DNA of 64,000 bases from Streptomyces sp. Edi2 (GTDB taxonomy: Bacteria; Actinomycetota; Actinomycetes; Streptomycetales; Streptomycetaceae). Below are positions 27,000 through 54,199 of the stretch, in pieces. Made by a program: the position numbers and the translations under genes. The stretch spans positions 1,798,001 through 1,862,000 of the forward strand of contig NZ_JBEJGX010000003.1 in NCBI RefSeq assembly GCF_040253635.1, written 5' to 3'. Below the pieces are notes generated by a model. The model made no database searches. It had not been told where the DNA came from and saw only the letters and a list, made by a program, of their open reading frames with translations. The stretch's first letter is position 1. Each line of letters opens with the position of its first letter.

Positions 27000-27728
27000 T
27001 TACACAGTCCAGGGCTCCCCCCAACGCTCACGATATGTCACTTCCCGGACAGGACGACGGCGACCGACAGCGAAGGAAACAGCAGGCCAGCCAAGAGGGA
27101 TTAGTGCGCCGGGAACGACACCGTCGGGTATTCCCAAGATCTGCTTGAGTTCTTCGTACAGCGTGAGTGAGGCACTGGGGAGGGATTCGACAGTGGGGAT
27201 GTCAAAGGCTTGCAACGTCGTGAGCGTGGCTCCGAGTCCAACGGATCGAGCGGCCAGCAGCAGGTTCTGCACTGCGGGGTAGATCGAAGCTCCGCCGAAG
27301 AAGTCTGCTGGGTTACGGCTTGCCGGGAGAAAGCAGGCGATAATGATAACTGGGACTTCATCAAAGTTCGCGGCGAGCGTGGCCCCCGAAGAAATCTGAC
27401 GCTCCTCGTCGGGAATCCGTTCATTTCGCACTTCAGGAGAGTTGAGCCGGGCTTCGTGGTGGTACCAGCCTCGCTGGTACCACCGAGTGAGCTGTTCCTT
27501 TATGCAAGGGTCACGGACAACGATGAACCGCCACGGCTGGCGATTCTTTCCCGAACCTGCCTGTATGGCATGACGAAGCACGTAGTCAATAAGTTCTGGA
27601 GACACATCAGCTCGTCGAAACCTACGCACCGAATTTAAGGTACGGATGCAATGCGAAACCGCATCGATCGACGCCATTGAAAGCGCTTCACTATCGACGG
27701 CTTGACTATTCAGTGTGGGGGATTCCAT
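27000..27728 (-). CDS. Nitroreductase-family flavoenzyme
   Basis: A 242-residue FMN protein. The N-terminal RTLNSVRRFRRADVSPELIDYVLRHAIQAGSGKNRQPWRFIVV is the flavin-binding start of the family, and GGASIYPAVQNLLLAARSVGLG plus IPLGWPAV are its later motifs. I start it at ATG 27728, with GAGGG upstream; the frame runs open to 27842. As the last gene of the left minus-strand NRPS operon it may reduce or oxidise the peptide product or a precursor (enoyl, nitro or oxazoline-type chemistry are all known in the family). The substrate cannot be told. Confidence 0.85.
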   Translation of the reverse strand: MESPTLNSQAVDSEALSMASIDAVSHCIRTLNSVRRFRRADVSPELIDYVLRHAIQAGSGKNRQPWRFIVVRDPCIKEQLTRWYQRGWYHHEARLNSPEVRNERIPDEERQISSGATLAANFDEVPVIIIACFLPASRNPADFFGGASIYPAVQNLLLAARSVGLGATLTTLQAFDIPTVESLPSASLTLYEELKQILGIPDGVVPGALIPLGWPAVSFAVGRRRPVREVTYRERWGEPWTV

Positions 27729-27884
27729 GACGCCCTCAACCCTTGACAGTATCAATTGGCAGTAACACTTGACTGAGCGCGGAGAACTCCACAGCGCATA
27801 GATCGACATTCGAAAACATGGGAAGTCTCCGCGACGGGCCAAGCCTCAGTCGCATATCCGGATCCGAGCTGCGACGCGAAGACA

Positions 27885-29249
27885 CTAATTTGGTACCGCT
27901 AACGATGCTTCAACCTGCGACGCCGCAGCCGCCTTGGCCGGCAGCGATTTCAGCCTTGTCACCGGCGAGAGCGCAATGGGCACCAACATCACAGCAGACG
28001 CCCCTGCTGCAACCCAAAGAGCGGAATGCAGTCCGACCTGGTCGGCAACGAGCCCACCGACTGGGCCTCCCAGCGCTCCACCACCGAACATGAGCATCCT
28101 CGTAGCGGCACTCATTCGCCCCATCAACGGATCGGGAGTGATGGCCTGGCGCAGACTCACGATGACGACGTTAGCGACGCTTACTCCCATATAGGCGATA
28201 AAGAAGGATGCGATGAACAGGCCCCACAACACTGGCTTGGGACCCCTTGCCGCCGGAATCAATAACGGTCCGAGAAATATCACTGCGACCGATACCGCAT
28301 AGATCCTTCCTACCGCAAATCGGCGAACGATCGGCCCCGAGACAACGGCACCAATCAGCCCGCCCACCGAACCTGCTCCAAGTATGAAACCCACACCGGA
28401 GGGAGACAGCCCGGCATTTTGCACCGCGTACAGCAGGAACAGCGATGAGACCATAATCATGAAGAAATTACAGGAGCTGCCCACCAAGGCAATCGCCCGA
28501 AGATATCGATTGCCAAATACCCACCGTAAGCCCTCGGCCAGATCTGTTCGCAAACGTCGCTTCTCGACAGATGCTGATACAGGTTCAGGAGCCCGGATGG
28601 AGAAGAGGGAAACCACTGACACCGCATAGGATACGGCGTTTACAGCCATTGCCGTCGGCGCAGAAAGCGAGCTCACCAGCAGGCCTGCGATTCCCGGGCC
28701 GACCACCTCGGCACTTGACGATGTCGTGCTCAGTTTCGCATTGGCATCGAGGAGCGACCGGCGATCTCGGACGATCGATGGAACATACGACATCCAGCTG
28801 ACGTCGAAAAGCACCGATGCGATGCCGATGCCCAGTGCCAGAACGTACAGCACGGGCAAGTTCAACAGACCGGTCATGGAGAATACCGGCACCAGACCGA
28901 TCAAGACCATGCGGGATATATTCGCACCCAGCATCATCGGACGCTTCTTGGATCTATCGACCCAAACGCCGAAGAGCAGTGCCAGACCCAGGTAGGGGAC
29001 CATCTGCACGAAGCGCAGCATACCCAGCTCGCCAGGACTTGCCTGGAAAACCAGAACAGCGGTCAAGGGGAGCGCGAGTGCCGTGATCTGGATCCCGTAC
29101 AAGGACAGCGTCTCGCCGCCCCAGAACCTGAGAAATTCAGCATTCCGCCAAAGACTGGCCGGCGGGGATTCCCCGGACGGGGCGACGTTGGTCTCCCCAC
29201 CGTCACTCCCGTCGCCTCCCCCAGGGGCATCGTCCACGTTCTTCGTCAT
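27885..29249 (-). CDS. MFS exporter of the peptide cluster
   Basis: A 454-residue carrier with 12 helices, of the DHA3/EntS-like drug and siderophore exporter group: FLRFWGGETLSLYGIQITALALPL at the start, VWVDRSKKRPMMLGANISRM as the loop 2-3 motif, and AKLSTTSSSAEVVGPGIAGLLVSSLSAPTAMAVNAVSY around TM5-6. Its ATG overlaps the thioesterase stop by 4 bp. It most likely exports the product and may confer self-protection. Confidence 0.88.
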   Translation of the reverse strand: MTKNVDDAPGGGDGSDGGETNVAPSGESPPASLWRNAEFLRFWGGETLSLYGIQITALALPLTAVLVFQASPGELGMLRFVQMVPYLGLALLFGVWVDRSKKRPMMLGANISRMVLIGLVPVFSMTGLLNLPVLYVLALGIGIASVLFDVSWMSYVPSIVRDRRSLLDANAKLSTTSSSAEVVGPGIAGLLVSSLSAPTAMAVNAVSYAVSVVSLFSIRAPEPVSASVEKRRLRTDLAEGLRWVFGNRYLRAIALVGSSCNFFMIMVSSLFLLYAVQNAGLSPSGVGFILGAGSVGGLIGAVVSGPIVRRFAVGRIYAVSVAVIFLGPLLIPAARGPKPVLWGLFIASFFIAYMGVSVANVVIVSLRQAITPDPLMGRMSAATRMLMFGGGALGGPVGGLVADQVGLHSALWVAAGASAVMLVPIALSPVTRLKSLPAKAAAASQVEASLAVPN

Positions 29250-30133
29250 ACGGCGCCTCCATCACAGGCATGGGCCGAGTGTGCCTGGGCCAAGGTGCGC
29301 CGAACGATGTCAGTCAGGGTCACGAGCGCGTCACCAACCCAAATCGAGTGATGGTTGCCCATGACAATGTGCTCCGCTACGGCTTTACCCCAGTCCTGCC
29401 AGCAGAGCGTCTCGCCCGGCGTTCGGGGATCAGCTGCCGTCCCCGGACAGCCCTGCTCGGCCACCGATTCGCTCGCCCTGATGAGGGTGATCAAACCGGG
29501 ATACCCGATGCCCTCCACACGGTGATCGAAAAGCGCCACGACATGAGCCCTGAAGACCGTATAGCGATCCAGCAGGAACTCTGCATCGATTTCGTCAGGG
29601 AACAGATCAGCCTGCTCTACAGCCGAAAAAACCATCTCAGGCGACGGCTCCTCCCCAAGCCCGGCGAGGACCGAGTCCACATCGGAGGATACGCCTCGCG
29701 ATGCCCCTATAAGATCCTCCAGGAACTTGTGCAGCAGGACCTTCTCAGATGGCAACGGTTCTGGATTGGGAACCTCTGCATCAACAATCACAAGAACGGG
29801 GACTTCCTCCCCAAGAAGGATCAGCTTCCTTGCTACCTCGAAAGCTACCGTGCCACCCAGGGACCAGCCCAACAAGCAGTAAGGCCCCTTGAGGTTGGAC
29901 GCTATGAGGGATTTTACGTGCGTTGCAGCCAGCTCTTCGATAGACCCTGCCAGCGGGGCACCACCATCGAAGCCTGGCGCTTCGAACCCGTAGACGGGTT
30001 GTTCCGAACCGAGTTCTCGGGCCAGATCAACATAGGCATAGGCAGAGCCGGAGACCGGATGAACACAATAAAGCGGAGGGAGACTACCGGATGGGCGTAG
30101 AGGCACCAGCGTCCCAGAATATTCGTCAGCCAC
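29246..30133 (-). CDS. Stand-alone NRPS thioesterase
   Basis: A 295-residue alpha/beta hydrolase of the EntF/SrfA thioesterase type. The oxyanion/N-terminal motif is LYCVHPVSGSAYAYVDLA, the nucleophile Ser is in LLGWSLGGTVAFEVA, an acidic residue follows in VIVDAE and the catalytic His is in MGNHHSIW. It starts at GTG 30133 inside the end of the C-A-PCP gene (8-bp overlap) with GGGAGGG upstream. It is larger than typical type II editing thioesterases and may be the chain-releasing enzyme, since no NRPS protein here has a C-terminal release domain. Confidence 0.85.
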   Translation of the reverse strand: MADEYSGTLVPLRPSGSLPPLYCVHPVSGSAYAYVDLARELGSEQPVYGFEAPGFDGGAPLAGSIEELAATHVKSLIASNLKGPYCLLGWSLGGTVAFEVARKLILLGEEVPVLVIVDAEVPNPEPLPSEKVLLHKFLEDLIGASRGVSSDVDSVLAGLGEEPSPEMVFSAVEQADLFPDEIDAEFLLDRYTVFRAHVVALFDHRVEGIGYPGLITLIRASESVAEQGCPGTAADPRTPGETLCWQDWGKAVAEHIVMGNHHSIWVGDALVTLTDIVRRTLAQAHSAHACDGGAV

Positions 30134-33100
30134 AGTTCCCTCCCACCTCCGGCTTTGAGGCGACCAGGTCGTCTATCGCAGCAGCCACGGCCCCCACCGT
30201 TGCGGTCCCGTAAAGCATCCGCACACCAATCTTCACACCGAACCTCTTATTGAGACGGCTCACTGCCCGCATTGCCTGCAGGGAGTTGCCACCCATATCG
30301 AAGAAACTGTCCTCCACCCCGACATTGGGCCTGGATAGCACCGCAGAATAGACATCGGCGACTCCCGCCTCGCTCATCGTGACGGGCGCCCCGGACTGCC
30401 GGTCAAATCCTTCCACACTCATCTCTTCGGGAAGAGGCAGAGCAGCCCGATCTATCTTCCGGGCAGGCGTCAGGGGAAATTCATCAAGCATCACCCAACT
30501 GGTCGGCACCATGTACTCGGGCAGCTGCTTCGCGAGATGGCTACGAAGGTCAGCTGTGTGCAGGGCATCGCTATCGTGAGTCGTAACATAGGCGACCAGC
30601 CGCTTCTCGCCTCGCGAATCAGGCCGCAGCAGCACCGTGGCCATTTTGACTCCCGGGTGAGTGAGGAGAATGGACTCGATCTCACCGAGCTCGATACGGA
30701 GGCCTCTGAGTTTCACCTGGTTATCGAGGCGACCCATGAAGTCCACTTGCAGATCTTTGGTCCAGCGAACTTGGTCACCACTGCGATAGACCTTGCCACC
30801 CGGGTGAAATGGATCATCGATGAACTTCTCTGCCGTCAAGTCCGGCTGGTTGAGGTAACCTCGTGCTAATCCCTCATCGCCTCCGATAAGGAGCTCACCA
30901 GGAACTCCGCGCGGCACCAGGTTCCCATCGCTGCCTACGATGTAGACACGGCGGTCGAACTCTGGAGCTCCGATCGGCGGCGAAGACTGCCATATTGTCT
31001 TCTCGCAGTTGTACTCAAGACAGGCAATCGCCGCCTCGGTCGGGCCATAGAGATTGACGAACTGACGGCCAGGCAAATTCCACTTGTTGACCAGCTCCGC
31101 AGGGAGTGCGTCCGCGCCACCCATGACGTACTTCAGGTCCGGGTAGGGGCCGGCCACAACCAGGGAGAGCATCGCCGGCGACAGCCCCGCGTAGGTGACC
31201 CGCTGATCGCGCATAAGTGTGGCCAGAGCTTCCGGGGAGGAAGCGTCCACGGGTGCCACCAGGACCAGCGACGCGCCGCCGATAAGTGCCGTGAAGATCT
31301 CTCCGATAGACATGTCGAAGGTGAGCGCAGGGAGCTGCAGCAGACGGTCGTCGGGCGTGAAGCCGAACGTGCGCCAGTACGCCTCGATGAAGCAGCGCAG
31401 AGCGCGATGTTCAATCAGTACGCCCTTGGGCCGACCAGTCGAGCCGGACGTGTAAAGAACGTAGGCCAGAGAGTCACGGGTCGCCCACTCCTCTATGGAC
31501 GAATCCACAGCTGAAGATTCCAGGTCCTCCCATTGGGTGTCCAGCAAGAGGGTGTTCCAGCCGTCGGGCTCTGGCAAATCCCCGACCATCGTAGAACGGG
31601 TGATGACCAGGGGTGTCTGGGTATCGTGCAGGATATGATCCAGCCTGGACACCGGGTGGGAAGGGTCAATCACGGTGAAGGCTGCCCCAGCCCGGAGGAC
31701 TCCGACCAGCGCCACGAGTGTGTCGAGATCGCGGTCCATGGCAATAGTCACGACTTGCTCATGGAGTACACCCTGCGCGCGCAGGTAATGCGCCAGAACA
31801 TCGGCCCTACGGATGAGTTCACCGTATGTCAGCTCGACCCCACGGCAAATGGCGGCAACCCTGTCCGGTCCTTCGGCGGCCACTCGCGCAATGGTGGCAT
31901 GAACTGGTTCGGAACTATAGGGAAACTTGCCGCCGTACCCGGCTGCAAGGATCTGCTCCCGCTCGGAGCCGGTAAGTATCGAGAGCTTGGAGAGCGGAAG
32001 ACTCGGACTCGCAGCTGCTGAAGCCAGTACGCTCTGCAGGTGTGCAGCCATGGCCTCGATACGCCACCGGTCGAATAGGTCGAGTGCATATTCGATAGTC
32101 AGTGTCAGGCCTTCGCCCGATTCGGTGAAGGCCACCGCGAGATCGTAGCGGGCTCGCGTAACCGCGGCTGCAACCGGCTCAACCTCCAGGCCGTCCAGCA
32201 CGAGTCCGGATCCGGACGTGTCATCGGAAAGGACCTGAACTCCGACCTGGAAAAGTGGATTTCGGCCGGACGCACGGACGGGCTGTACACGAGCCACAAC
32301 CTGATCGAACGGGACATCCTGGTTGTCATAGACATCCATATTCGATCCGGAAACTCGATCGATCAGCTCGGAAAAGGTCGGGTCACCTGAGAGGTCCGAG
32401 CGCAGCACGGCCATATTAATGAATAGACCGACGACCTCCTCAAGCTCTTGTTCCATGCGACCCAATACGGGGATCCCTACAGAAATGTCTTCCTGACCCG
32501 TGTAACGACTGAGCACCACGTTCAATGCAGCAGTGACGACCATGAAGAGAGTCGCGTTCTCCTGGCTCGCCAACGCATAGATGCTGCGGACCAAACTGGT
32601 TGGCAACTCGACTCTGACAACATCACCCCGCTGACTTGCTACTGCGGGTCGGATCCGGTCACTGGGGAGCTCCAGGGCAGGAAGCCCCGCAAGCGCATTT
32701 TCCCAGAACTGTAGCTGCTGTTCCCACGACGCTGACAGGCTGCGCTGCCGCAATACGTGCTCAGCATAGGTGGCACGTGGCTCGGGCAAGGAGGGATCAC
32801 GACCGCCAATGAGCTGCTGATAAGCAACGCTGAGTTCATGGCTTAACACCCCCGCCGACCAACCGTCAGTGACGATGTGGTGGAAACTCAATGCCAACAC
32901 GTGCTCGTTATCTGCAAGGCGGATCAAAGAAAACCGATGGAGTGGCCCCGTCTCCAGATCGAAGGGCGTGTCACCTGCTTCTTGCAGCCACTCGTCAAGA
33001 CGGCGCTGGCATTCATCGGCCGGGAAGTCGCTAAGATCAATCTCCGCAAGGCGAACCTCTGCAATGGGTGAGATCACCTGGTACGGAACGCCGTCGTTGG

Positions 33101-33317
33101 CATGGAAGGTGGCGCGCAGCTGTGGGTGCCGTGCGACCAAGTAGCTCAGTGCCTTGTTGAGTGCAACCGTGTCCAACTCACCGCGGATTCGGTATGAATT
33201 GAGCAGATTGTACGCAGTCTCGCCGCGGTTGAGCTGTGCCAGGAACCACAGTTGGTCTTGCTCGAAGGACAGCCCGAGCCGCTGTCCCGGGGTTTCCTGT
33301 TCGGGTATTTTACTCAT
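30126..33317 (-). CDS. NRPS module, C-A-PCP
   Basis: A 1063-residue nonribosomal peptide synthetase. Residues about 10-440 are a condensation domain with HHIVTDGWS intact. Residues about 465-965 are an adenylation domain (YVLYTSGSTGRPKG, NLYGPTEAA, YRSGDQV). Residues about 985-1050 are a carrier domain with GGNSL. My hand alignment to GrsA gives the pocket residues D-M-G-G-V-G-L-I-A-K. Asp at the first position indicates an alpha-amino acid, but the code matches nothing I know. There is no epimerase or thioesterase domain. It is probably the last module, since the thioesterase gene overlaps its 3' end. Confidence 0.93.
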   Translation of the reverse strand: MSKIPEQETPGQRLGLSFEQDQLWFLAQLNRGETAYNLLNSYRIRGELDTVALNKALSYLVARHPQLRATFHANDGVPYQVISPIAEVRLAEIDLSDFPADECQRRLDEWLQEAGDTPFDLETGPLHRFSLIRLADNEHVLALSFHHIVTDGWSAGVLSHELSVAYQQLIGGRDPSLPEPRATYAEHVLRQRSLSASWEQQLQFWENALAGLPALELPSDRIRPAVASQRGDVVRVELPTSLVRSIYALASQENATLFMVVTAALNVVLSRYTGQEDISVGIPVLGRMEQELEEVVGLFINMAVLRSDLSGDPTFSELIDRVSGSNMDVYDNQDVPFDQVVARVQPVRASGRNPLFQVGVQVLSDDTSGSGLVLDGLEVEPVAAAVTRARYDLAVAFTESGEGLTLTIEYALDLFDRWRIEAMAAHLQSVLASAAASPSLPLSKLSILTGSEREQILAAGYGGKFPYSSEPVHATIARVAAEGPDRVAAICRGVELTYGELIRRADVLAHYLRAQGVLHEQVVTIAMDRDLDTLVALVGVLRAGAAFTVIDPSHPVSRLDHILHDTQTPLVITRSTMVGDLPEPDGWNTLLLDTQWEDLESSAVDSSIEEWATRDSLAYVLYTSGSTGRPKGVLIEHRALRCFIEAYWRTFGFTPDDRLLQLPALTFDMSIGEIFTALIGGASLVLVAPVDASSPEALATLMRDQRVTYAGLSPAMLSLVVAGPYPDLKYVMGGADALPAELVNKWNLPGRQFVNLYGPTEAAIACLEYNCEKTIWQSSPPIGAPEFDRRVYIVGSDGNLVPRGVPGELLIGGDEGLARGYLNQPDLTAEKFIDDPFHPGGKVYRSGDQVRWTKDLQVDFMGRLDNQVKLRGLRIELGEIESILLTHPGVKMATVLLRPDSRGEKRLVAYVTTHDSDALHTADLRSHLAKQLPEYMVPTSWVMLDEFPLTPARKIDRAALPLPEEMSVEGFDRQSGAPVTMSEAGVADVYSAVLSRPNVGVEDSFFDMGGNSLQAMRAVSRLNKRFGVKIGVRMLYGTATVGAVAAAIDDLVASKPEVGGNCG

Positions 33318-33455
33318 CTCGCACTACTCCGATTCATGACGATCTGACACCGTTAAGCAAGCGGCAACAACTGCTCCGGCGCTCTCCTTGCACCTCAACC
33401 GACGGAGCCAACTCCGAGTTCTCGCGCCGGCGCGGAAATACCTCTGGCCCCGCTT

Positions 33456-34562
33456 TCAGCCGGAAGTAAAAACCTTCGGCGGCCTGAGCACGGATTCGAT
33501 CCGCCGTAAACCTTCGGTTAGCGACTGGGGCTCGCGGGCAAAACAGAGACGGAACCCGTTTCCGGACCCAACTGTCTCGCCGGGCATCACCATGACCCCC
33601 AGGTCAAGTGCACGCTGAGCGAAGGCCATCGGCGGTTCGCCGGTCATCAACTGGATCCAGGCGAAGGGCGTTCCATGTGGTGGCACAAGCTGTATCGCAT
33701 CTGAATGACGATCGGCCCACTCGCGCAGCAGCGCCAGACCGCCCGACGTGAGACGCCTGTATTCCTCGATGTACTGAGCACGCTGCTGCAGCACTTCGAC
33801 AGCAAGGCTCTCGCACAGGACCGAGTTGGAGATGGTGGTGAGATGCTTTCGCTCAATGCAGGCTGACACCAGGTCAGGTGTGCCGAACAGCCAGCCGATG
33901 CGTAGGCCCGGAAGACCGTATACCTTCGACAGGCTGGATACCGAGAGAACACGATCGCTGCGGGTGGCGAGAGAAGTCGAGAGGTCGACCGAGTACTCCT
34001 CGTCAAGGAGCAGATACCCGTCATGACGCTGAGCCAGTGACACCAGCGCGTCGAGGTCGGCAGCATTGATGCGCTGGCCAGTCGGATTGCACGGTGTACT
34101 GGCGACGATCAATCTGAGTTTGGGACCAGCAATTGCTGCAGCTGCCTCGACGTCGACAGTCAGATCTGGCCGAAGGCCAATAACGTCAACATCGGCGCCT
34201 AATGAAGACGGCGCCTCCGCATGCTGCTGCCACCCGGGGCTGAAGGTGATGACTTGATCGCCAGGACGGAGCAGGGCGCTGTACACGAGGTAGAGTGCTT
34301 CCTGGGCTCCATGAGTGATCAATGTCGAGTTGAGCTCGCCGCTGTACAACCGAGCCACCATCTCGCGCAAGCGCTCGGTGCCCCGGTCGTGCCCGTAGTC
34401 GAGCACGAGGCCATCGTGGACCTTCAAACCCGCCAGGGTTCCACACTGCACGTTGCTGTCGCCTAAGTCGATATCGAACCGGCCTGCAGCATCTTCGAAC
34501 ACCCAACGCCGCATGGGGTACGCAGCTGACCGATTGGCCGTGTCGACCGGTAGAGAGGTCAT
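33456..34562 (-). CDS. Fold-type I PLP aminotransferase
   Basis: A 368-residue enzyme of the class I/II aminotransferase group. It has LDYGHDRGTERLREMVARLYSG, STPCNPTGQ, the cofactor Asp region LLLDEEYSVD and the PLP Lys in VSSLSKVYGLPGLRIGW. The text around YG..RG, THGAQEALYL and SKVYGLPGLR recalls capreomycidine synthase-type (VioD) enzymes, which cyclise a side chain rather than transaminate; the resemblance is only by eye. It overlaps the preceding small gene by 4 bp, so it is in the NRPS operon. Confidence 0.82.
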   Translation of the reverse strand: MTSLPVDTANRSAAYPMRRWVFEDAAGRFDIDLGDSNVQCGTLAGLKVHDGLVLDYGHDRGTERLREMVARLYSGELNSTLITHGAQEALYLVYSALLRPGDQVITFSPGWQQHAEAPSSLGADVDVIGLRPDLTVDVEAAAAIAGPKLRLIVASTPCNPTGQRINAADLDALVSLAQRHDGYLLLDEEYSVDLSTSLATRSDRVLSVSSLSKVYGLPGLRIGWLFGTPDLVSACIERKHLTTISNSVLCESLAVEVLQQRAQYIEEYRRLTSGGLALLREWADRHSDAIQLVPPHGTPFAWIQLMTGEPPMAFAQRALDLGVMVMPGETVGSGNGFRLCFAREPQSLTEGLRRIESVLRPPKVFTSG

Positions 34563-34837
34563 CGGTGGCTCCTCTGCGGAACGGAGGGGACACGGGCCCC
34601 GAGCCGTTCCCGAAGCGTGGGGCCGAAGGAGCCTTCCGCAATGCGCTCCGCAGGACCGGTCGTGTTGATGTGTCCGCCATCGCTGACCTGGATCTCCAGT
34701 TCGCCACCGGGCATCCGCACCGTCGGCTCAGGGTCAACAAGAGCAGGGCAGCTCAGCCGAGCGGATATCTCCTCGAACAGTCCCTGGTAGGTACTGACTG
34801 GTTCTGGGCTGAGGACGGAAGGATGCAGGGTAGACAA
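34559..34837 (-). CDS. Small unknown protein in the NRPS operon
   Basis: A 92-residue protein beginning at TTG 34837 with a strong AGAGGAG ribosome site, and overlapping the following aminotransferase gene by 4 bp. It contains ALVDPEPTVRMPGGELEIQVSDGGHINTTGPAE, with no helix-turn-helix, carrier Ser motif or membrane segment. The overlap and ribosome site argue that it is translated. It matches no family I know; it could be a subunit or chaperone for the adjacent aminotransferase or NRPS. Confidence 0.6.
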   Translation of the reverse strand: MSTLHPSVLSPEPVSTYQGLFEEISARLSCPALVDPEPTVRMPGGELEIQVSDGGHINTTGPAERIAEGSFGPTLRERLGARVPSVPQRSHR

Positions 34838-37493: not shown

Positions 37494-37496
37494 CAA

Positions 37497-42660: not shown

Positions 42661-43251
42661 ATGACCTTAATTGACCCCGTATCCGCCGTCGTTCCCGCCG
42701 GCATGATGAGTCGGCACGAACAACCCGTGATTCAGCTTGCAGGAGGCGTGGAGCTGCGACCATGGCAGCAGACAGATGCGTCAGCTTTGGTCGCCTCCAG
42801 TCTCGATCCCGCAATCCGACAGTGGAACCGGGTCCGCCCCCTGTCACCCGAGGAAGCGCGGCAGAAGATCGCCCGATGGCACGAGCGCTGGCGGACTGAA
42901 TCCGCAGCGGTCTGGGCTATCTGTCGCACGGCTGACGAAGAGATCCTCGGGTTGATCGGCCTCGGCGACATCGACCTCCACGGTGGCAGTGCCGAATACC
43001 TTTACTGGGTTCTGCCGGCCGCCCGCGGTACCGGCGTTGCGACACATGCGACAGTCGCACTCAGCCGCTGGGCCTTCGACGACTTGGGGTTGCACCGACT
43101 CCAACTCACCCACTCGACCGCCAACGAAGCGTCCTGCCGGGTTGCCACCAAGGCGGGGTTCGAACTGGAGGGAACCATGCGAAGCGCACTGCTGCACGCA
43201 GACGGGTGGCACGACGAACACCTGCATGCTCGTGTACGAGGTGACGAATAG
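42661..43251 (+). CDS. GNAT acetyltransferase, RimJ/RimL type
   Basis: A 196-residue N-acetyltransferase. The RimL-like pattern is GVELRPWQQTDASALVASSLDP, LIGLGDIDLHGGSAEYLYWVLPAARGTGVATHATVALSRWAFDDLGLHRLQLTHSTANEASCRVATKAGFELEGTMR, with the acetyl-CoA loop at ARGTGVAT. Codon 3 of the longest frame is TTA. The role could be modification or self-resistance for the peptide, or it may be a passenger gene between insertion-sequence remains. Confidence 0.82.
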   Translation: MTLIDPVSAVVPAGMMSRHEQPVIQLAGGVELRPWQQTDASALVASSLDPAIRQWNRVRPLSPEEARQKIARWHERWRTESAAVWAICRTADEEILGLIGLGDIDLHGGSAEYLYWVLPAARGTGVATHATVALSRWAFDDLGLHRLQLTHSTANEASCRVATKAGFELEGTMRSALLHADGWHDEHLHARVRGDE

Positions 43252-44205: not shown

Positions 44206-44245
44206 CAGAACCATCCTCGTGATCTATAGAGAGACGGCTTCTCCC

Positions 44246-46266: not shown

Positions 46267-46318
46267 CTCGTCGCCTCTCGTGGTCAGCGGGGGCCCAGAC
46301 GGGAACTGAGGCGATTGG

Positions 46319-47575
46319 TCAGAGAACACGGACCTGCCCGCTCCCCCACACGACGTTCTTTACACAGGTCAACGATTCAAGGCCCATGGGTCCACGAACA
46401 TGAAGCTTCTGCGTGGAGACACCGATCTCGACTCCGTAGCCGAACTCGCCGCCGTCAGAAAAACGAGGGGAGCTGTTGACAAATACGCTGCCGGAGTCGA
46501 TCGACCGCGCGAAACGCCGGGCTACCGCGATGTCCTGAGCAACGATAGCGTCAGCATTGCGGGTGCCCCACCGGTTGATGTGCGCCACTGCCGCATCGAA
46601 GTCGGGCACAACCTTGACCGCGAGAATCATGTCGAGGTACTCAGTCCCCCAATCGCTCTCTCGCGCCGGCTCCGCGTTCGGCCAGACTTGCTGTGTTCGA
46701 GCGTCGCCTCGTATTTCCACGCCAAGCCCCTGGAGTTCATCCAGGACCTTCGCCAGCCATGAATCAGCGAGATCCTCGTGGACCAACAGCGTCTCCACTG
46801 CGTTGCACACGCTGGGACGCGAAGTCTTGCCGTTGATGACGATTTCCGTGGCCATGTCCAGATCGGCGGTGTGATCCACGTACACATGGCAGTTGCCATC
46901 GCCATCGATGACAGTCGGCACAGTGGCGTGGTCCTGCACCGTCTTGATCAAGCTGGGTCCACCACGCGGGACGAGCAAATCCACGTAGCCATCGGCGCGC
47001 AGCAGTTCCAGAGCAGCCTCACGAGAGGAGTCTCGAATCAGTTGCACCGCGTCCTTTGGCACTTCGTCATAGCGCTCCAGAACACGAGCAATCACGTCGG
47101 CAACGGCCACATTCGTGTGCATAGCGATCGACGACCCTCGCAGCACAGCGGCGTTTCCGGATTTCAGACACAGGGCAGCGACATCGGCGGTTACGTTCGG
47201 CCGGGCCTCGTAAATAACTGCGATGACCCCGAGAGGGTCACGCACCCGGTCGATCTGGATACCATTGGGGCGAGTGTCGCCCTTGACCACCTGTCCTACC
47301 GGGTCGGGCAAACCCATGATAGTGCGGATCGCGTTGACCATTCCCGTGATGCGCGAATCCGTGAGAGTGAGGCGATCCACCAGAGTGGCTGAAGTCCCCG
47401 CCGCGCGGGCTGCCTTCACATCGAGCGAGTTAGCGGTCTTCAGTTGATCCCGGCTCTTGTCGATGGCAACAGCCATCTCGTCAAGAACCCGATCCTTGAT
47501 TTCCGTATCCAACTCACGCACCCTGACTGATGCTTCACGGGCACGACGGCAGACATCGATGACTGAGATGGACAT
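46319..47575 (-). CDS. proA: Gamma-glutamyl phosphate reductase family
   Basis: A 418-residue protein of normal ProA length, which reduces gamma-glutamyl phosphate to glutamate semialdehyde with NADPH. Landmarks are [39 protein letters not shown], the catalytic Cys in [16 protein letters not shown] and the end block [34 protein letters not shown]. The proB homologue's stop directly precedes its ATG. This copy lies in the biosynthetic cluster, so a separate housekeeping proA is expected elsewhere. Confidence 0.95.
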   Translation of the reverse strand: [418 protein letters not shown]

Positions 47576-48676
47576 TCAGCTCTCCAATAGACTTATGTAA
47601 TCGGATGGGTGAAGTACGACCTGGCCGTCCGCCAACTGGCGTGGTGCGACCTGGGACATGTCTGGGGCAGCGACGCTCGAACGGCCACGGGCGATAACAC
47701 CATGGGAATCAACAACCACGTCCACTACATCACCGGACTTGAAATTCCCCTCAGAAGCCTGCACATGGCCTTTCGTCAGGGGTCGGCCGTCAGCGGCTGC
47801 GGCTACGGCGGAGGGATTGCACAACAGCCGGCCGGTGGGGGCAGCAGACAGTGCGCGCCATAGCTGGCCCAGATCTGCACGCTTCTTCGGCTGCCGGGGA
47901 CGCACCAATGTGCCGACGTTCTCCCCTCTCACAGCTCCCTCGATTGAATCTGCCACGGAAGCACCAGCGATCACACAGGCGACGCCCGCCAACGTCGCGA
48001 TCCAAACGGCGCACAGCTTGGTGGGCATACCACCGGTTCCCGGCCCTTCGACCGGACTCCCTGCCAGGTGTTCCACTTCCGGTGTCATGGCATCCACGAC
48101 AGGAATCCGGCGCGCATCTGTACTCTGGCGCGGATCGCTCTCGTACAGGCCGGAGACATCGGTCAGCAGGACGAGCAAACCAGCTCCCAGCGTGGCGCTG
48201 AGCAGGGAAGCGAGCACGTCATTGTTTCTGACCATGACGGCATCGTTCTCGTTCACCACGGGCACCCACCCCCGGTCGAGTGCCTCTTCCAGCGCATCGC
48301 GGACACCGTCACGGTGATCGGGCCCGGTCAAGTCGAACGGGGTGAGGAGGAACTGAGCTGCTTGCAGGCCATTCTCTTCCAAGCTGCACCGGAACGCATC
48401 GAACAGAAGACCCTGGCCGATCGCTGCGGCCAATTGCCGAGAGCCGGCACGTCCTTCGGCGTGACGGTTCAGGCGCACATCGCCCAAAGCAATGGCGCCG
48501 GAAGCGACAAGCAGGATTTGATGACCGTCCGTCCGAAGCTTGGCGACGGCCTCAACCAGCGTGGCAAGTTTCCGCTGATCCACTTCACCATCAGTGATGA
48601 GAGAGGACGTCCCGACTTTGATGACGATACGTTTGAGGTGAGCGTTTTGAGGAGCAGGGGTCCTGGTGATGCTCAT
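47576..48676 (-). CDS. proB: Glutamate 5-kinase family protein with modified substrate loop
   Basis: A 366-residue amino-acid kinase plus C-terminal PUA domain (residues about 275-360), the architecture of bacterial ProB. KVGTSSL, LVASGAIALG, VLLTDVSGLYESDP and GTGGMPTK (catalytic Lys) are kept. The glutamate-binding loop is changed: E. coli has NENDAVATAEIKVGDNDNL, here it is NENDAVMVRNNDVL, about four residues shorter with the first Asp of DND replaced by Asn. This suggests altered feedback control or a glutamate analogue as substrate. Its ATG overlaps the stop of the A-PCP gene by 4 bp. Confidence 0.9.
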   Translation of the reverse strand: MSITRTPAPQNAHLKRIVIKVGTSSLITDGEVDQRKLATLVEAVAKLRTDGHQILLVASGAIALGDVRLNRHAEGRAGSRQLAAAIGQGLLFDAFRCSLEENGLQAAQFLLTPFDLTGPDHRDGVRDALEEALDRGWVPVVNENDAVMVRNNDVLASLLSATLGAGLLVLLTDVSGLYESDPRQSTDARRIPVVDAMTPEVEHLAGSPVEGPGTGGMPTKLCAVWIATLAGVACVIAGASVADSIEGAVRGENVGTLVRPRQPKKRADLGQLWRALSAAPTGRLLCNPSAVAAAADGRPLTKGHVQASEGNFKSGDVVDVVVDSHGVIARGRSSVAAPDMSQVAPRQLADGQVVLHPSDYISLLES

Positions 48677-50565
48677 GAAGAATCACCCAGCAACTCACTC
48701 ATCTCATCTTGCGATAGATTCGAGATCTTCTCTTTGAGTAGCAACCCGACTTCCACCGCAAGGGAAGAGACTGTGGGCGACTCAAAAAGTCTCGCCAACG
48801 GTAGCTCGACCCCGAACTTTTGCCCCACGCGGTTGACAACCCGAACAGCCAGAAGCGACTCACCGCCAAGATGGAAGAAATTATCCGTGACGCTCACTCG
48901 CTGCACATCAAGGATGCTGGCAAATATATCCGCCAACTCCTCCTCCACAACGCCACGGGGAGCGGTGTAGATCTCGTTCGAAGTGGCCAGTGAATCGTCG
49001 AGAGCCGACAATTTCCCACGATCGACCTTGCCACTCCCATTGAGGGGCATCTGCTCAAGAAAAAAGAACGAAGAAGGCCTCATGTAGTCAGCAAGGTGTC
49101 GACTCACATGGTCACGCAATTCATCGGCAGAAACCCTACGACGCGAGTGCAAGTGTGTCACGTATGCGACCAATCGCTTAAGCCCGTTTGCAGACTCCCG
49201 CACGCCGGCCACGGCTTCCTTTACCAGGGGGTGCCTGGAGATTACAGCCTCGATGTCTCCCAATTCGACGCGCATCCCGCGAATTTTAACCTGGTGATCC
49301 TCGCGTCCGGCATAACGAAGACAGTGATGAGCGTCAAAGTATCCCCGGTCACCGGAACGGTACATCCGTTCACCCGAATGCAGGGGGTGGGGGATGAAAT
49401 TCTCTGCCGTCTTGGCAGGGTCCCCCAGGTAACCGCGAGCCAACCCGATGCCACCCATATAGATGTCTCCGACCACTCCAGTCGGCACCGGATCCAGATC
49501 CTTGTTCAGGACGTAAACTTGATTGTTCGCGAATGGGAGTCCGATGCTCACCGAGCCGTCGACGAGCCCATCGGCGGGACTGCACGTGTAGGTGGTGGAA
49601 TCGATGGATACTTCAGTCGCTCCCCACGTGTTGTGCAGCTCGCCAGGCATGGACTCGAAGAACCGGGCCACCGTCGCCGGGAGCAGTGCTTCACCGCTCG
49701 AAACGGTGCACCGCAGTTTGGGGAGTGATATTTGCGCGTCCTCTTCTATCACATCCAGAACCATATTCAGCATGCTGGGCACTACCTGGAGGAGTATCGT
49801 CCCGTAGCGGGCTGCGGCCTCAAGTACTGCACGAGGGTCCTTGTGTGCACCTGGACGAACCAAGGCTACTCGTCCGCCGAATGCGAGTGGCCAGAAGAGT
49901 TCGAGGGCTGAATCATCGAAAGTAAGAGTGGTCTTGTGCAAGACCGTTTCGCCGGGCTGAAGCTGGTGCTCTTGCTGCATACACAGCATGCGGTTGACCC
50001 AACCTAGATGGGTGCTCCCGACCCCTTTGGGTGTCCCGGTGGAACCGGATGTGAAGTACACGGATACCAGATTATGCGGTGTCACCGGGACCGCTGGACT
50101 CGCCTCTGAAAACGAGGAAATAACGGGCCAGTCCGAGTCGGGGCAGATGATGAACGCCTCTGTGGCCAAATGGGATCGATAGCGGTTATCTCCGATACAG
50201 AATCGGACGCCGGCTTCGTCCAGGATCTGATTGAGCCGGTTGCTCGGCACTGTGGGATCAAGTGGCACATACGCTCCGCCCGCCTTCAAAATTGCGAGCA
50301 AGGCCACGACCAAATCTGGCGATCGATCCATGCATAGAGCGACCGGACTATCTAACTGCAGCCCATGCTCTAAAAGGAAATTGGCCAGCTGATTTGCGCG
50401 CGCATCAAGCTGTCGATAGCTAAGCTGTTGGTCACCGAGGACCACCGCGGTATGGTCCGGGGTTGCCATGGCCTGAGCTTCAAAGAGATGATGCATGCAC
50501 TGAAATGGCGAAATTTCAAGGCTCCGGTTTTCCGGACCGGAGACCGGCACGCGTACGCGCTTCAT
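48673..50565 (-). CDS. NRPS loading-type protein, A-PCP
   Basis: A 630-residue protein: adenylation domain (residues about 20-520, with VYFTSGSTGTPKG, NTWGATEVSID, MYRSGDRG, NGSGKVDRG) and carrier domain (residues about 540-615, FFHLGGESLLAVRVV). It has no condensation domain, so it likely starts the chain. My hand-read pocket code is D-D-L-Q-V-S-T-I-D-K, which is not a proline-type code (usually DVQ..AHVV). It is translationally coupled to proB, linking precursor supply and activation. Confidence 0.93.
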   Translation of the reverse strand: MKRVRVPVSGPENRSLEISPFQCMHHLFEAQAMATPDHTAVVLGDQQLSYRQLDARANQLANFLLEHGLQLDSPVALCMDRSPDLVVALLAILKAGGAYVPLDPTVPSNRLNQILDEAGVRFCIGDNRYRSHLATEAFIICPDSDWPVISSFSEASPAVPVTPHNLVSVYFTSGSTGTPKGVGSTHLGWVNRMLCMQQEHQLQPGETVLHKTTLTFDDSALELFWPLAFGGRVALVRPGAHKDPRAVLEAAARYGTILLQVVPSMLNMVLDVIEEDAQISLPKLRCTVSSGEALLPATVARFFESMPGELHNTWGATEVSIDSTTYTCSPADGLVDGSVSIGLPFANNQVYVLNKDLDPVPTGVVGDIYMGGIGLARGYLGDPAKTAENFIPHPLHSGERMYRSGDRGYFDAHHCLRYAGREDHQVKIRGMRVELGDIEAVISRHPLVKEAVAGVRESANGLKRLVAYVTHLHSRRRVSADELRDHVSRHLADYMRPSSFFFLEQMPLNGSGKVDRGKLSALDDSLATSNEIYTAPRGVVEEELADIFASILDVQRVSVTDNFFHLGGESLLAVRVVNRVGQKFGVELPLARLFESPTVSSLAVEVGLLLKEKISNLSQDEMSELLGDSS

Positions 50566-50632
50566 GGGAAGTCCCCTCCATCAGAGCTTTCATTCATCCG
50601 TCACTCAAAATCCGCGAATCATGAAGAGTGGA

Positions 50633-52111
50633 CTATGTGTTTCCGGCAAGAGCCCGTCGATCAACTTTACCGTTGGGCGTCAGCGGAAAATCCTTGAGCG
50701 CAACAAATTCGCTGGGCACCATGTACTCAGGAAGGGCATGCAGGCAGGCATCCCGCACGTCCGAGGGGGTAACTTCCGTACCCTGCTCGGCCGTGTAATA
50801 GGCCACGAGATTCAGACGATCAGCCTTACGGTCGCCTACAACCACTGCACGGCGCACACCCGGAAGGCTGACGATGGCGGCCTCTACCTCCCCGGGTTCG
50901 ACTCTGTATCCGTTCATCTTTAGCTGATCGTCTACACGTGCAATGAAGTGGAAATTATCTCCGTCGAACAGCACTCGATCACCCGTGAAATAGCACCTGA
51001 GCTTTCTGCCATCTTGATGCCTGATGTTCCTGAACTTCTCCTCCGTGAGTTGCCTGTCGCCCAGATAGCCGGTTGCTACACAACGACCGGAAATAACAAG
51101 CTCACCCTCCTCCATCGATCGGAAGGGGCGAAGCCGCTCACCATCGGACATCAGCAATTCGGCGCTGACAACTGCTGTACCAATCGGCGGGAAATCTGGC
51201 CACGCTTCAGGATCTCCCGCAAGCCTATATTGGGTCACCAGATGCGTCTCGCTGGGACCGTACTGGTTGATCAATCCAATTTCGGATTTGCCGCAAAACT
51301 CCCTCACCTCATCGTTGATGACCAGCTTCTCGCCAGCCACCGCGATCTCCTGCAGAGCGGGAAGTTTGGTATCGGTGGCGGTGGCCACCAATGCCAAACT
51401 ATGCAGGGCGCCAACCGGCATAAAGAGCCGGCTCACCTCATTGCTCAGTGCTAGCTGCATCACTTCGAAGGGATCGCGCCGCTCTTGATCGTCGGCTATA
51501 ACAAGCTTGGCGCCAGACGACCAGGTGGCGACCATGTCCTCATAAATTACGTCAAAGCCAATGGAAGACGCATGCAGCGTGTGGGGAAGAGCGGTGTGAT
51601 CCCAATGCTCAACATGCCATGCAGCCAGATGCTCGAGAACCACCGGAGGAACCGCGACTGATTTCGGCTCCCCTGTTGAGCCGGACGTCGCAATGACGTA
51701 GGCAACCTCAGCGTCAGCGAGTTGCCGACGAGGTCGGCTGCGGACTTTGGAGTAGTTGTATCGAGGAAGGTCGGAATCGATATGCCACTCGATCTCATCG
51801 TGCAGAACCAGCGTGGGACCAGCGCTATTGAGGATCCGCTGTGTCCGCGCTGCGGGCATACTGGGATCGATCGACAGCACACCTGCGCCTGCCCGCCATG
51901 CACCAAGTACTGCAGCACACCGCAACCAGGAACGTGTGTCGTAGAGGCAGACGAGGTCGCCCTGTCCGATTCCCTTTTCTACGAGACCGCCACACATTTC
52001 TGCAGATAATTGGTCGAGGTCGCCGTACGTATAACTTTTCCCGTGATCGACGACTGCTATGGACTGACTGTGTCTTTCTATCGAAGCAACAAGCGACTGG
52101 ATCATAGACAT
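50633..52111 (-). CDS. Stand-alone NRPS adenylation enzyme
   Basis: A 492-residue adenylation protein without carrier domain. Core motifs are YVIATSGSTGEPKSVAVP, FDVIYEDMVATWSSGAKLVIAD, NQYGPSETHLV, CYFTGDRV and TPNGKVDRRAL. The FDV..ED/RLFMPVGAL text puts it with the MbtH-dependent free-standing adenylating enzymes known from aminocoumarin-type systems. The hand-read pocket code is D-V-E-F-A-A-Q-L-V-K. It starts 7 bp after the MbtH gene and probably loads the C-PCP protein in trans. Confidence 0.92.
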   Translation of the reverse strand: MSMIQSLVASIERHSQSIAVVDHGKSYTYGDLDQLSAEMCGGLVEKGIGQGDLVCLYDTRSWLRCAAVLGAWRAGAGVLSIDPSMPAARTQRILNSAGPTLVLHDEIEWHIDSDLPRYNYSKVRSRPRRQLADAEVAYVIATSGSTGEPKSVAVPPVVLEHLAAWHVEHWDHTALPHTLHASSIGFDVIYEDMVATWSSGAKLVIADDQERRDPFEVMQLALSNEVSRLFMPVGALHSLALVATATDTKLPALQEIAVAGEKLVINDEVREFCGKSEIGLINQYGPSETHLVTQYRLAGDPEAWPDFPPIGTAVVSAELLMSDGERLRPFRSMEEGELVISGRCVATGYLGDRQLTEEKFRNIRHQDGRKLRCYFTGDRVLFDGDNFHFIARVDDQLKMNGYRVEPGEVEAAIVSLPGVRRAVVVGDRKADRLNLVAYYTAEQGTEVTPSDVRDACLHALPEYMVPSEFVALKDFPLTPNGKVDRRALAGNT

Positions 52112-52118
52112 CAGATAC

Positions 52119-52337
52119 TCACCGACCTCGTGCTTCCGTTGTGTTGCGAAGACTCAATGGACGCATATCTGCCCAAGTTTCGGTGATGTACTTTAGGCAT
52201 TCCGCTTTGGAGCCGATTCCATCCACCCCACGCCAACCTGCTGGTATGACCTTGCCAACCGGCCAAAGAGAGTACTGTTCTTCGCCATTCACCACCACCT
52301 GGAAGGCGGCATGAGTCTCATTCTTCTGGCTGTCCAT
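52119..52337 (-). CDS. MbtH-family NRPS accessory protein
   Basis: A 72-residue protein with the full MbtH signature: [24 protein letters not shown] and [12 protein letters not shown]. MbtH proteins bind adenylation domains and are needed for their solubility or activity. It lies between the C-PCP and the free-standing A gene, so the latter is its most likely partner. The ATG follows an AAGGA site. Confidence 0.97.
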
Positions 52338-52399
52338 GCGATTCCTTGAGCTCAGGTGAGTTCTGACCGATCCCTAACTCGCCGCCTCGGTGATACCTG

Positions 52400-54199
52400 T
52401 TAGATTCCCGCGTTGCTGCCGGGCTGTGCAGATTTCACGAGGGCGCCGATCCGAACAGCAAGATCCTCAAACACGGGACACTCGAACATAAGCCTCACGG
52501 TGGGCTCTATGTTCCACGTCTTGCGAATGCGCAGGATCACCTTTGTGGCCAGCAAGGAGTTCCCTCCCACGCTGAAGAAGTGTGCTCCACGAGGAACTAC
52601 TGGTACCCCCAGCACCTCGGACCATATTGCGGCCAATTGAATCTCCGTCGGTGACCGGTCACCGTTGGGGGTTGACTCAAGGCCGGGATTTGTTTCTCGT
52701 TGGCCCGCCTGAGCGCTATCCTCAACGAGCTTTCCACAACGAGCACTGTGGGCGGTGCGACTCTGGGGAAGACCTGGGATGCTTTCGACTGTTCTGCTCT
52801 GGTCCGTGACCAGAGCAGTCAATATTGTGCGATAGTCCGACGCCAGATCCTGGATTACGGCGTGATCAAAGAGGGCATGTGGGAACTCGAACCAGCACTT
52901 CAGTCCCATTGAATCATGGATTGCTTTGAATTCTAGATCGAACTTTCCCGTCAGAGTTCGCATTTCCTCAAGCTCGACGGATACCCCCGGAAACTCGGGA
53001 GCCGGGACGGCATCGTTAACCGTGCACATCACCTGGAAGACCGGGTTGATTCCTGCGTCGCGTTTCACCTGCAGCGCATCTACGACCTGATCAAAAGGAA
53101 CCCGTTGGTGAGAGAGTGCATCGACGGAAGCGGTCCTGACTCTTCGCAGTACGTCGCCCAGAGGCGTGTCGCTGGTAACTTCTGCCCTGATCGCTACCGT
53201 GTTCACAAACAGGCCTACGATCGACTCCCACTCCGGACGCGACCTATTGGCAACTGGCGCACCAATAATTATGTCCTCGTTGCCAGAATGACGGTGCAGC
53301 AAGATCAGAAGGGCTGATGCAGCGATAGTGAACAGCGAGATATTGTCCCTCTGCTGCAGTTTTGAGATCGCGGCGACGAGGTCAGACGGGAGATCGATAT
53401 CTGCCCATCCACCAGCTCTGGAAGCATCATCAGAGCGGGGCCTGGTACAGGGTAGCGTGAGTACCTCTGGCGCGTCCTTGAGCTGCTCTGTCCAATAGCT
53501 CAGCTCCGAGCTGAAGCAGTCGCGCTCGGCTAAGTCGGCTTCCCATATTGCGTAGTCGGCGTATTGCAGATCCAGAGCCGGCAGCCCGGGCTCCCGGTCG
53601 GCTATCCGTGCGGAGTACAGACTCCCCAGTTCTTGGAAGAGGATTTTTTCCGACCAGCCATCAGTCACGATGTGATGGATGTTGAGCATCAGGTAGTGGT
53701 CCCGTGGCGCGAGACGCCATAAGGTCGCGCGTATCAGGGGCTCACCGATGAGCTTAAAGGGGCGGTTGGCTGCAGTTTCCAGCTCCCGCTGCATTACAGT
53801 TTCTCGTTCTTGCTCCGAGAGCCCGGCCATGTCGACACAGGGGATATCCAGATCGAGAGACGGCGCGATGACCTGTATTACTTCGTCCCCGGAGTGAGAA
53901 AATGTCGTACGGAGGCTCTCGTGGCGACTGACCAAGTCGCCTATTGCGTGCCGGATTTCGTCCACCTGGAGTTGCCCCCGCAGGCGCAGAACGAACGGCG
54001 TATTGTACGACTGATTTATCCCCTCCAGTTGGTTGATAAACCACATGCGCTTTTGTGCGGACGAAGCCGGTAACACGCCGTCGCGAGAGAACGGAGTTAT
54101 GGTCTCCTGCGGGTCGACGCTAGAAAGTCGTTGTAAAAATCTCCGCAAAAGATCTTCCTGATTCCGAGCCTGCCCGCCGGCGGAATACCCGGTACTCAT
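52400..54199 (-). CDS. NRPS condensation-carrier protein, C-PCP
   Basis: A protein of about 599 residues: condensation domain (about residues 25-450, HHIVTDGWSEK intact, LFVNTVAIRAE and VPFDQVVDAL motifs) followed by a spacer rich in Ser/Gln/Arg and a carrier domain with FFSVGGNSLLATKVI. There is no adenylation domain, so the carrier must be charged by a separate enzyme. The start is ATG 54199 (or 54202) with AAGGA just upstream; the frame is open to 54286. It appears to be the first gene of the right minus-strand operon. Confidence 0.92.
   Translation of the reverse strand: MSTGYSAGGQARNQEDLLRRFLQRLSSVDPQETITPFSRDGVLPASSAQKRMWFINQLEGINQSYNTPFVLRLRGQLQVDEIRHAIGDLVSRHESLRTTFSHSGDEVIQVIAPSLDLDIPCVDMAGLSEQERETVMQRELETAANRPFKLIGEPLIRATLWRLAPRDHYLMLNIHHIVTDGWSEKILFQELGSLYSARIADREPGLPALDLQYADYAIWEADLAERDCFSSELSYWTEQLKDAPEVLTLPCTRPRSDDASRAGGWADIDLPSDLVAAISKLQQRDNISLFTIAASALLILLHRHSGNEDIIIGAPVANRSRPEWESIVGLFVNTVAIRAEVTSDTPLGDVLRRVRTASVDALSHQRVPFDQVVDALQVKRDAGINPVFQVMCTVNDAVPAPEFPGVSVELEEMRTLTGKFDLEFKAIHDSMGLKCWFEFPHALFDHAVIQDLASDYRTILTALVTDQSRTVESIPGLPQSRTAHSARCGKLVEDSAQAGQRETNPGLESTPNGDRSPTEIQLAAIWSEVLGVPVVPRGAHFFSVGGNSLLATKVILRIRKTWNIEPTVRLMFECPVFEDLAVRIGALVKSAQPGSNAGI

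Follow-up and report, generated by a model that had tools for sequence, protein, structure and literature searches.

A mosaic non-ribosomal peptide synthetase cluster in Streptomyces sp. Edi2 with apparent ancestry in a nitrocyclopropane-type cluster and a dedicated ProB-ProA-aminotransferase cassette

What could be made by a GC-poor gene island in Streptomyces sp. Edi2, and from which sources were its genes assembled? The island lies in a 64,000 nt stretch of contig NZ_JBEJGX010000003.1 (C3:1798001-1862000 of the 9.8-Mb genome G000), in the following called the window, to which all positions refer unless a contig is given. It encodes a non-ribosomal peptide synthetase (NRPS), for which the original prediction had claimed fully dissociated modules, a product of about three residues and a set of accessory genes not recognizable from any known pathway. 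From our analysis, the island is an intact cluster and, judged by sequence comparison, a mosaic of blocks that recur separately in other clusters.

An intact island of foreign composition

The island extends from approximately 27.0 to 54.7 kb. Its GC content in 2-kb bins is 0.56–0.67 within 28–54 kb versus 0.69–0.75 beyond 26–56 kb, and the GC content at third codon positions (GC3) is 0.55–0.72 in the island genes versus 0.89 and 0.90 in two genes tested on its flanks. None of the 19 translated genes (18 from the island and a flanking pirin gene) contains an internal stop, and the NRPS core motifs HHxxxDG, GGxSL, K[IV]DR, GxSxGG and SxSK are present; frameshifts in key NRPS genes, raised as a possible objection in the original prediction, were therefore not found. 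The named parts are real. Open genes with Pfam or NCBIfam matches encode a module of condensation (C), adenylation (A) and peptidyl carrier protein (PCP) domains, an A-PCP and a C-PCP protein, a free A enzyme, an MbtH-like protein, a thioesterase (TE), a major facilitator superfamily (MFS) exporter, a nitroreductase, two class I/II and one class IV aminotransferases, a chorismate-binding enzyme, a cyclase, ProB, ProC and ProA (the last as Aldedh), and an ATP-grasp ligase was recognized by the fold of its model. With open A, C and PCP domains that keep their core motifs, and with a release enzyme, the island is a foreign-looking, intact NRPS cluster of open genes.

One loading and two extension carriers plus the TE fit the proposed product of about three residues. 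Dissociation applies to two of the three modules only, because the C-A-PCP is an ordinary single-protein module. The features are as follows (percentages are amino acid identities; Ncpa, nitrocyclopropylalanine; PLP, pyridoxal phosphate; ORF, open reading frame).

27000..27728, minus strand: nitroreductase-family flavoenzyme (PF00881, E 1e-20)
27885..29249, minus strand: MFS exporter (PF07690; 65–67% to exporters of five Ncpa-type clusters)
29246..30133, minus strand: free TE (PF00975, GWSLGG; 41–46% in five Ncpa-type clusters, same place)
30126..33317, minus strand: C-A-PCP module (code DMGGMGLIA from mafft columns, position 299 read by eye as V; 61–62% to five loci, 57–63% to 13 others)
33456..34562, minus strand: PLP enzyme similar to VioD/GntC, scoring under the curated cut-off of each (61–63% in five Ncpa-type clusters)
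34601..34741, minus strand: DapF-like (BelM/HrmT-like) remnant, last part only (51% over 47 amino acids)
34920..35927, minus strand: class IV aminotransferase of branched-chain type (PF01063; above the cut-offs of the branched-chain transaminase profiles NF005146 and TIGR01122, under those of others)
36141..37496, minus strand: ATP-grasp ligase with a predicted glutathione synthetase/glutathionylspermidine synthetase fold (sub-threshold Pfam matches, model)
39499..40929, plus strand: chorismate enzyme resembling isochorismate synthase, with Met where the base would stand (TIGR00543)
41518..42189, plus strand: cyclase-family metal hydrolase (PF04199)
42661..43251, plus strand: GNAT acetyltransferase, only a putative cluster member (PF13302)
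44246..45112, minus strand: ProC-like reductase (PF14748, PF03807; 57% to the NBC_01237 copy; start unsure, ORF opens at 45211)
45112..46329, minus strand: class I/II aminotransferase of the ProB-ProA cassette (PF00155; 58–71% in five other cassettes)
46319..47575, minus strand: ProA (NF001221, 551 bits)
47576..48676, minus strand: ProB (TIGR01027, 247 bits)
48673..50565, minus strand: A-PCP, likely the loading unit (code DDLQVSTID)
50633..52111, minus strand: free A enzyme (proline-type code DVEFAAQLV, whose last letter was read by eye beyond a gap in the alignment)
52119..52337, minus strand: MbtH-like protein (PF03621)
52400..54286, minus strand: C-PCP module without A domain (PF00668, PF00550, motifs; ORF opens at 54286)

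The cluster had been drawn to end at 54199, which lies near a likely internal start of the C-PCP gene and short of the opening of its ORF. Two weak transposase scraps were detected at 42.2–42.4 kb (E 3e-4) and 43.5–43.8 kb (E 6e-4, under the curated cut-off). There is no tRNA gene in the window, and no direct or inverted repeats of at least 24 bases over 25.5–57 kb. Between the divergent ATP-grasp and chorismate enzyme genes (37497–39498), none of the five ORF fragments tested matched a Pfam family. For the nitroreductase, no match was found among plasmids at E≤1e-20, nor in the regions fetched around relatives of the cluster.

The left part resembles NRPS clusters of putative nitrocyclopropane type

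A search of 392 genomes of the same genus with the PLP enzyme gave matches in 45 at E≤1e-30. Those with at least 53% identity lay in ten places, the window's own included, and approximately 40 kb (or the extent of the contig) was fetched around the other nine. In five of these regions the PLP gene is followed by the C-A-PCP (61–62%), TE (41–46%) and MFS genes (65–67%), and the other four are without this set. A second locus search returned 21 loci; 16 with 53–63% identity, all from actinomycetes, were kept and five with 22–26% left out. Upstream of the PLP gene, genes for a haem-oxygenase-like enzyme (HDO), a 2-oxoglutarate (2OG)-Fe enzyme and a DapF-like protein were present in all 16 loci, a C-A-PCP was encoded in 13, and serine hydroxymethyltransferase together with a second A-PCP in eight. 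The HDO of one relative locus matches HrmI in the PDB (E 3e-66), and the 2OG enzyme of the same locus aligns over 229 residues with chains 9dq0 and 8jms (E 1e-138), 8jms probably being ScBelL.

In the belactosin and hormaomycin pathways (belK-hrmI, belL-hrmJ, belM-hrmT), BelK/HrmI convert lysine to 6-nitronorleucine, which BelL/HrmJ cyclise to Ncpa; the same review also mentions a crystal structure of ScBelL from S. cavourensis and states that belM/hrmT may encode diaminopimelate epimerases (PMC10764440). Because their HDO and 2OG enzymes match HrmI and 9dq0/8jms, the relatives appear to form an orphan family of NRPS clusters of nitrocyclopropane type. The likeness of the window to belactosin and hormaomycin is drawn via these orphan relatives, with HrmI from the PDB as the only direct sequence comparison.

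The window resembles the orphan ScBelL-like NRPS clusters in its PLP enzyme, C-A-PCP with the code DMGGMGL(I/V)A, TE and MFS exporter, kept in the same order together with a DapF-like remnant. It differs from the BelK/BelL type in lacking BelK and BelL, in its truncated DapF-like gene, and in its additional A-PCP, C-PCP, free A, ProBAC and ATP-grasp genes. By tblastn with an E limit of 0.01, neither a BelK/HrmI-type N-oxygenase (haem-oxygenase-like) nor a BelL/HrmJ-type cyclopropanase (2OG enzyme) was found in the window. The remnant, overlooked in the original prediction, lies directly upstream of the PLP gene, corresponds to residues 269–315 of 342 and covers neither catalytic position. It was also recovered by a search within the own genome (49%), and apart from this 47-residue C-terminal match no intact DapF-like gene was found in the window.

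In its nine specificity columns the window C-A-PCP is identical to all 18 relative rows except for I/V at one site; these rows represent 15 distinct loci, as three rows from our genus genomes duplicate contigs of the other search. In an IQ-TREE phylogeny of 17 rows, the window C-A-PCP is sister to the Streptomyces/Kitasatospora rows (98/92), and the Micromonospora/Actinokineospora rows branch off earlier. Since these earlier-branching rows also carry the full gene set, the simplest reading of the tree is that the BelK/BelL genes were lost in the window's own line. Homology, tree and remnant agree in supporting the descent of the PLP enzyme, C-A-PCP, TE and MFS genes from a BelK/BelL-type cluster.

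Two other assignments were rejected for this part. For a capreomycidine or enduracididine peptide, the PLP enzyme scores far under VioD (194 versus 391 bits) and GntC (219 versus 415 bits), and there is no arginine hydroxylase family among the Pfam matches of the cluster. A plain nitrocyclopropane cluster is ruled out by the missing BelK and BelL.

The two Cys residues of DapF are catalytic. The DapF-like proteins encoded beside belL/belK homologs have Ser at both of these sites, judged against the host housekeeping DapF (CGNG, SCGTG); this holds for 25 of 25 rows read by eye (L053-L068 and the regions from our genus genomes, L066 being the G305 contig and L057 the query). Because Ser replaces both Cys, it appears unlikely that the BelM/HrmT-like proteins of these clusters are ordinary diaminopimelate epimerases as proposed for BelM/HrmT in PMC10764440, the comparison being of homologs and not of BelM/HrmT themselves.

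A second set of such genes is present in the same genome. The only other BelL-like and BelK-like matches lie adjacent at C3:4538209-4539979, about 2.7 Mb away, in a cassette (G000:C3:4538209-4542040; L085/L086) of BelL-like (71%), BelK-like (43%), DapF-like (42%) and PLP (43%) genes. The same quartet also occurs together in the genomes G372 and G414. An ATP-grasp gene is located near the distant cassette, with glutamine-amidotransferase-like and MFS-like neighbors named by eye only. In another genome, an NRPS locus (G086:C20 44001-84000; L161/L162) encodes BelL-like (43%) and BelK-like (41%) proteins and an MbtH protein, and could be a hormaomycin-type cluster.

A putative proline-type supply cassette and a probable trans-acting A enzyme

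In the right part of the island, ProB, ProA and a class I/II aminotransferase form a cassette. The aminotransferase has matches in six of the 392 genomes at E≤1e-60, the window's own included, and the weakest of them (G250, 37%) is without the cassette; a plasmid search yielded two records, of which that of NBC_01237 was counted once with G019. There are five distinct other cassettes (NBC_01237, NBC_01483, G279, G381 and G393), and in all five of these Streptomyces loci ProB, ProA and the aminotransferase stand together near NRPS genes. ProA is 67–97% identical among the six cassette copies, with 67–78% between the window's and the others. To the host housekeeping ProA, the window's copy is 53–55% and the cassette copies are 54–56% identical, by which the cassette ProA is a dedicated enzyme distinct from the housekeeping copy. 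ProB of the window is less alike (45–61% to the other cassette ProBs).

The A-domain code for proline is DVQFIAHVV. One proline-type A domain with D-[VP]-Q-[FY] occurs in each of the five cassette loci, and none among the four A domains of the NBC_01450 locus, which gave no cassette hit. Because the cassette loci each carry such a domain, we infer that the cassette supplies proline or a proline analog. That a conserved aminotransferase accompanies ProB and ProA suggests a route in which a substituted glutamate would be made first and then turned into a proline analog. No description of such a supply route was found in the literature searched.

A cassette locus with several parallels to the window is on the NBC_01237 plasmid (NZ_CP108509.1, ~1.137–1.162 Mb). 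Like the window, it has a ProB-ProA-aminotransferase-ProC cassette (57–78%) and, within approximately 25 kb, an ATP-grasp gene (36%), MbtH and NRPS genes. It differs in its multimodular NRPS with a methyltransferase domain and lacks an Ncpa-type block, its closest C-A-PCP being 36–37% identical. No characterization of this plasmid locus was found.

The window further holds a free A enzyme, an MbtH-like protein and a C-PCP didomain that lacks an A domain, as in trans-A systems. Among the 392 genomes the free A enzyme has nine other matches at E≤1e-90, eight of them with 52–56% identity. All eight regions around these relatives are NRPS loci with an MbtH match, and in all eight the match to the window C-PCP (32–35%) is continuous across the C and PCP domains, so that no A domain intervenes. 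The WS9326A synthetase of S. calvus, with the trans A domains Cal22/Cal23, likewise has free A, MbtH and an A-less C-PCP didomain, but has seven positions and trans A domains activating Thr and Asn, compared with three carriers and a proline-type code in the window; experiments showed that it cannot do without its two trans A domains (PMC7539972). By analogy with this proof of principle, the free A enzyme would charge the C-PCP in trans.

The ATP-grasp enzyme and the plus-strand genes

The ATP-grasp enzyme matched two GSP/CP-type Pfam families, both below the cut-offs. Its AlphaFold2 model, built from nine sequences (pLDDT 84.1, pTM 0.85), had human glutathione synthetase as the best Foldseek match (E 1.5e-18, TM 0.64, 15% identity) and also matched homoglutathione synthetases and glutathionylspermidine synthetases. 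As modeled, the enzyme has a glutathione synthetase/glutathionylspermidine synthetase-like fold over most of the protein. Matches at E≤0.001 were found in 24 of 61 genomes including the window's, the best outside it at 51% (G040) adjoining an MFS gene; a second genome collection yielded 27 candidate stretches, none of which was confirmed as a locus. The same genome encodes a second relative outside the island (42%; G000:C3:347389-348687). On an S. angustmyceticus plasmid (NZ_CP104318.1, L011), a 40% identical relative adjoins an MFS gene and an NRPS with sbnA/sbnB, the 2,3-diaminopropionate genes.

The scleric acid cluster of S. sclerotialus offers a comparison, made by description from the available text of PMC13307308. 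It needs its own ATP-grasp enzyme for the last step, in which, as proposed, a proline unit is linked to a benzoic acid derived from chorismate, and it shares with the window the ATP-grasp enzyme, a ProB and an MFS transporter (PMC13307308). Unlike the window, it has the proline-activating SclN and the glycolate genes sclQ1-4, and that text describes no trans A, C-PCP or Ncpa-type module (PMC13307308). General Pfam/NCBIfam scans of the window, with no search directed at scl genes, revealed no apparent set like sclQ1-4/sclN.

The chorismate enzyme passes the isochorismate synthase profile (TIGR00543, 291 bits, cut-off 225). In an alignment, the position of EntC Lys147, which we take to be the general base, is Met in the window and Lys in EntC, DhbC, 9va5, NBC_00998 and NBC_01450; as an isochorismate synthase the enzyme may thus be altered or dead. 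In 295 other genomes of the class it has no match at a strict E≤1e-100. Two Streptomyces plasmids each encode a copy (41–43%) at 1.8–2.5 kb from a cyclase with 67% identity. On the NBC_00998 plasmid the pair is accompanied by 3-deoxy-D-arabino-heptulosonate 7-phosphate (DAHP) synthase, a carbamoyltransferase and another ATP-grasp gene, and on the NBC_01450 plasmid by DAHP synthase and an NRPS. The latter stretch (NZ_CP109481.1, ~39.5–60 kb; L126) combines cyclase, DAHP synthase, isochorismate synthase and a large NRPS, has LarB/LarC-like genes (named by eye) and is unannotated in PLSDB. For DAHP synthase, there was no match in the window at E≤1e-6.

Two possible uses of chorismate were rejected. 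A 4-aminobenzoate or anthranilate starter disagrees with the best profile scores, which place the chorismate enzyme in the isochorismate-synthase type and the class IV enzyme in the branched-chain type; as a salicylate synthase the chorismate enzyme reaches 95 bits versus a cut-off of 325.

Proposed pathway and alternatives

The reading that we tentatively favor, with a probability somewhat short of even, is that the island is an intact mosaic NRPS cluster gained by horizontal transfer, which would make a short linear peptide X-proline/proline analog-Y with ATP-grasp tailoring. The A-PCP, placed first because it has no C domain, would load residue 1. The free A enzyme, helped by MbtH, would charge the A-less C-PCP in trans, either with proline or, as seems more likely, with an analog from the dedicated aminotransferase-ProB-ProA(-ProC) cassette. 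Following the gene order common to the relatives, the C-A-PCP would add residue 3, the neighboring TE would release the chain and the MFS protein would export the peptide. The ATP-grasp enzyme would attach another acyl or amino acid group away from the carriers, perhaps one derived from the chorismate enzyme and cyclase, and the class IV aminotransferase, the nitroreductase and the PLP enzyme would make or add further groups. The order of action of the genes, their substrates and the cooperation of the blocks are likewise predicted.

Several observations weigh against this proposal. ProC is found in only two of the six cassettes (window and NBC_01237), and the five other cassettes represent only three lineages because those of NBC_01483, G279 and G381 are 93–97% identical to one another. 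In the five cassette loci the proline-type A domain is never a free enzyme, and every locus also encodes between one and three A domains of a different type. The window free A enzyme carries Glu instead of Gln as the third residue of its code, and ProA/ProB had no match in the regions of its eight relatives; the link between cassette and free A enzyme is therefore one of co-occurrence. The specificity columns were placed by what we take to be the PheA segment, and we know of no code that matches DDLQVSTID or DMGGMGLIA. The window C-A-PCP has a long branch (0.38); moreover, with an A domain 69% identical overall, 51% of the A-domain columns are invariant over the window and 13 relatives, so that conservation of the code argues only weakly for selection. 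Finally, the loss of BelK/BelL may have crippled the pathway, and the plus-strand genes may lie outside the cluster.

Instead of one pathway, the island could hold two or three unrelated clusters or fragments, an Ncpa-type rump and a proline-type dipeptide cluster that do not cooperate. Each block recurs elsewhere without the others, and the divergent plus-strand genes, the 2-kb gap and the transposase scrap part left from right. Yet the right block has no TE and the one C-containing module of the left block no loading partner, whereas both together form one complete line, even though minimal relatives manage with one module. GC3 is also alike across the blocks (0.55–0.72), as if they had travelled together. 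We consider this separation unlikely, but still a serious alternative. A decaying cluster without product appears improbable. The missing BelK/BelL, the DapF stub, the chorismate enzyme that has lost its Lys base to Met and the 2 kb without a recognized gene fit such decay, but the NRPS and precursor genes are all open with core motifs, the A code is unchanged, and neutral drift to 57–63% identity between the C-A-PCP and its relatives would be expected to break genes.

We assign a similarly small probability to the possibility that Ncpa is still the substrate of the C-A-PCP and reaches it in trans from the distant BelL/BelK/DapF/PLP cassette. It would be consistent with the conserved code, the 65–67% conserved exporter, and the single BelL-like and BelK-like matches genome-wide, adjacent and next to DapF-like and PLP genes. 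The distant cassette, however, sits in surroundings of its own that include an ATP-grasp gene, a feature also of L065 and G007, and the use of Ncpa by the C-A-PCP is presumed even in the relatives. In the only other BelL/BelK NRPS locus found (G086 contig 20), moreover, the code is absent from all six A domains; DTFLCGLVA comes closest, agreeing with that of the window in D, G, L and A only. A supply in trans is compatible with the mosaic pathway that we favor. Combined, they would describe a strain that builds an Ncpa and proline-analog peptide from split loci, its NRPS core having been cut from a nitrocyclopropane cluster and re-joined to a trans-A/proline-analog line, which we regard as rather doubtful.

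Implications

The literature, genome samples and plasmids covered yielded no characterized cluster with this gene set, subscription papers and antiSMASH/MIBiG being outside the search. The accessory set itself is not as unrecognizable as had been thought: at least four blocks occur elsewhere, one of them being a nitrocyclopropane-type NRPS rump. The separate blocks recur elsewhere; their combination, for which no described match was found, is informative for cluster evolution. The ScBelL-like relatives would make up an orphan nitrocyclopropane-type NRPS family in Streptomyces, Kitasatospora, Micromonospora and Actinokineospora, and the cassette, which stands beside proline-type A domains in all six of its loci (from four lineages, counting that of the window), suggests a way in which proline or an analog is supplied. 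If the favored reading is true, a new peptide pathway would have arisen by sub-cluster recombination with the DapF stub as a visible scar, and the locus would allow a test of whether an NRPS module outlives the loss of its precursor genes.

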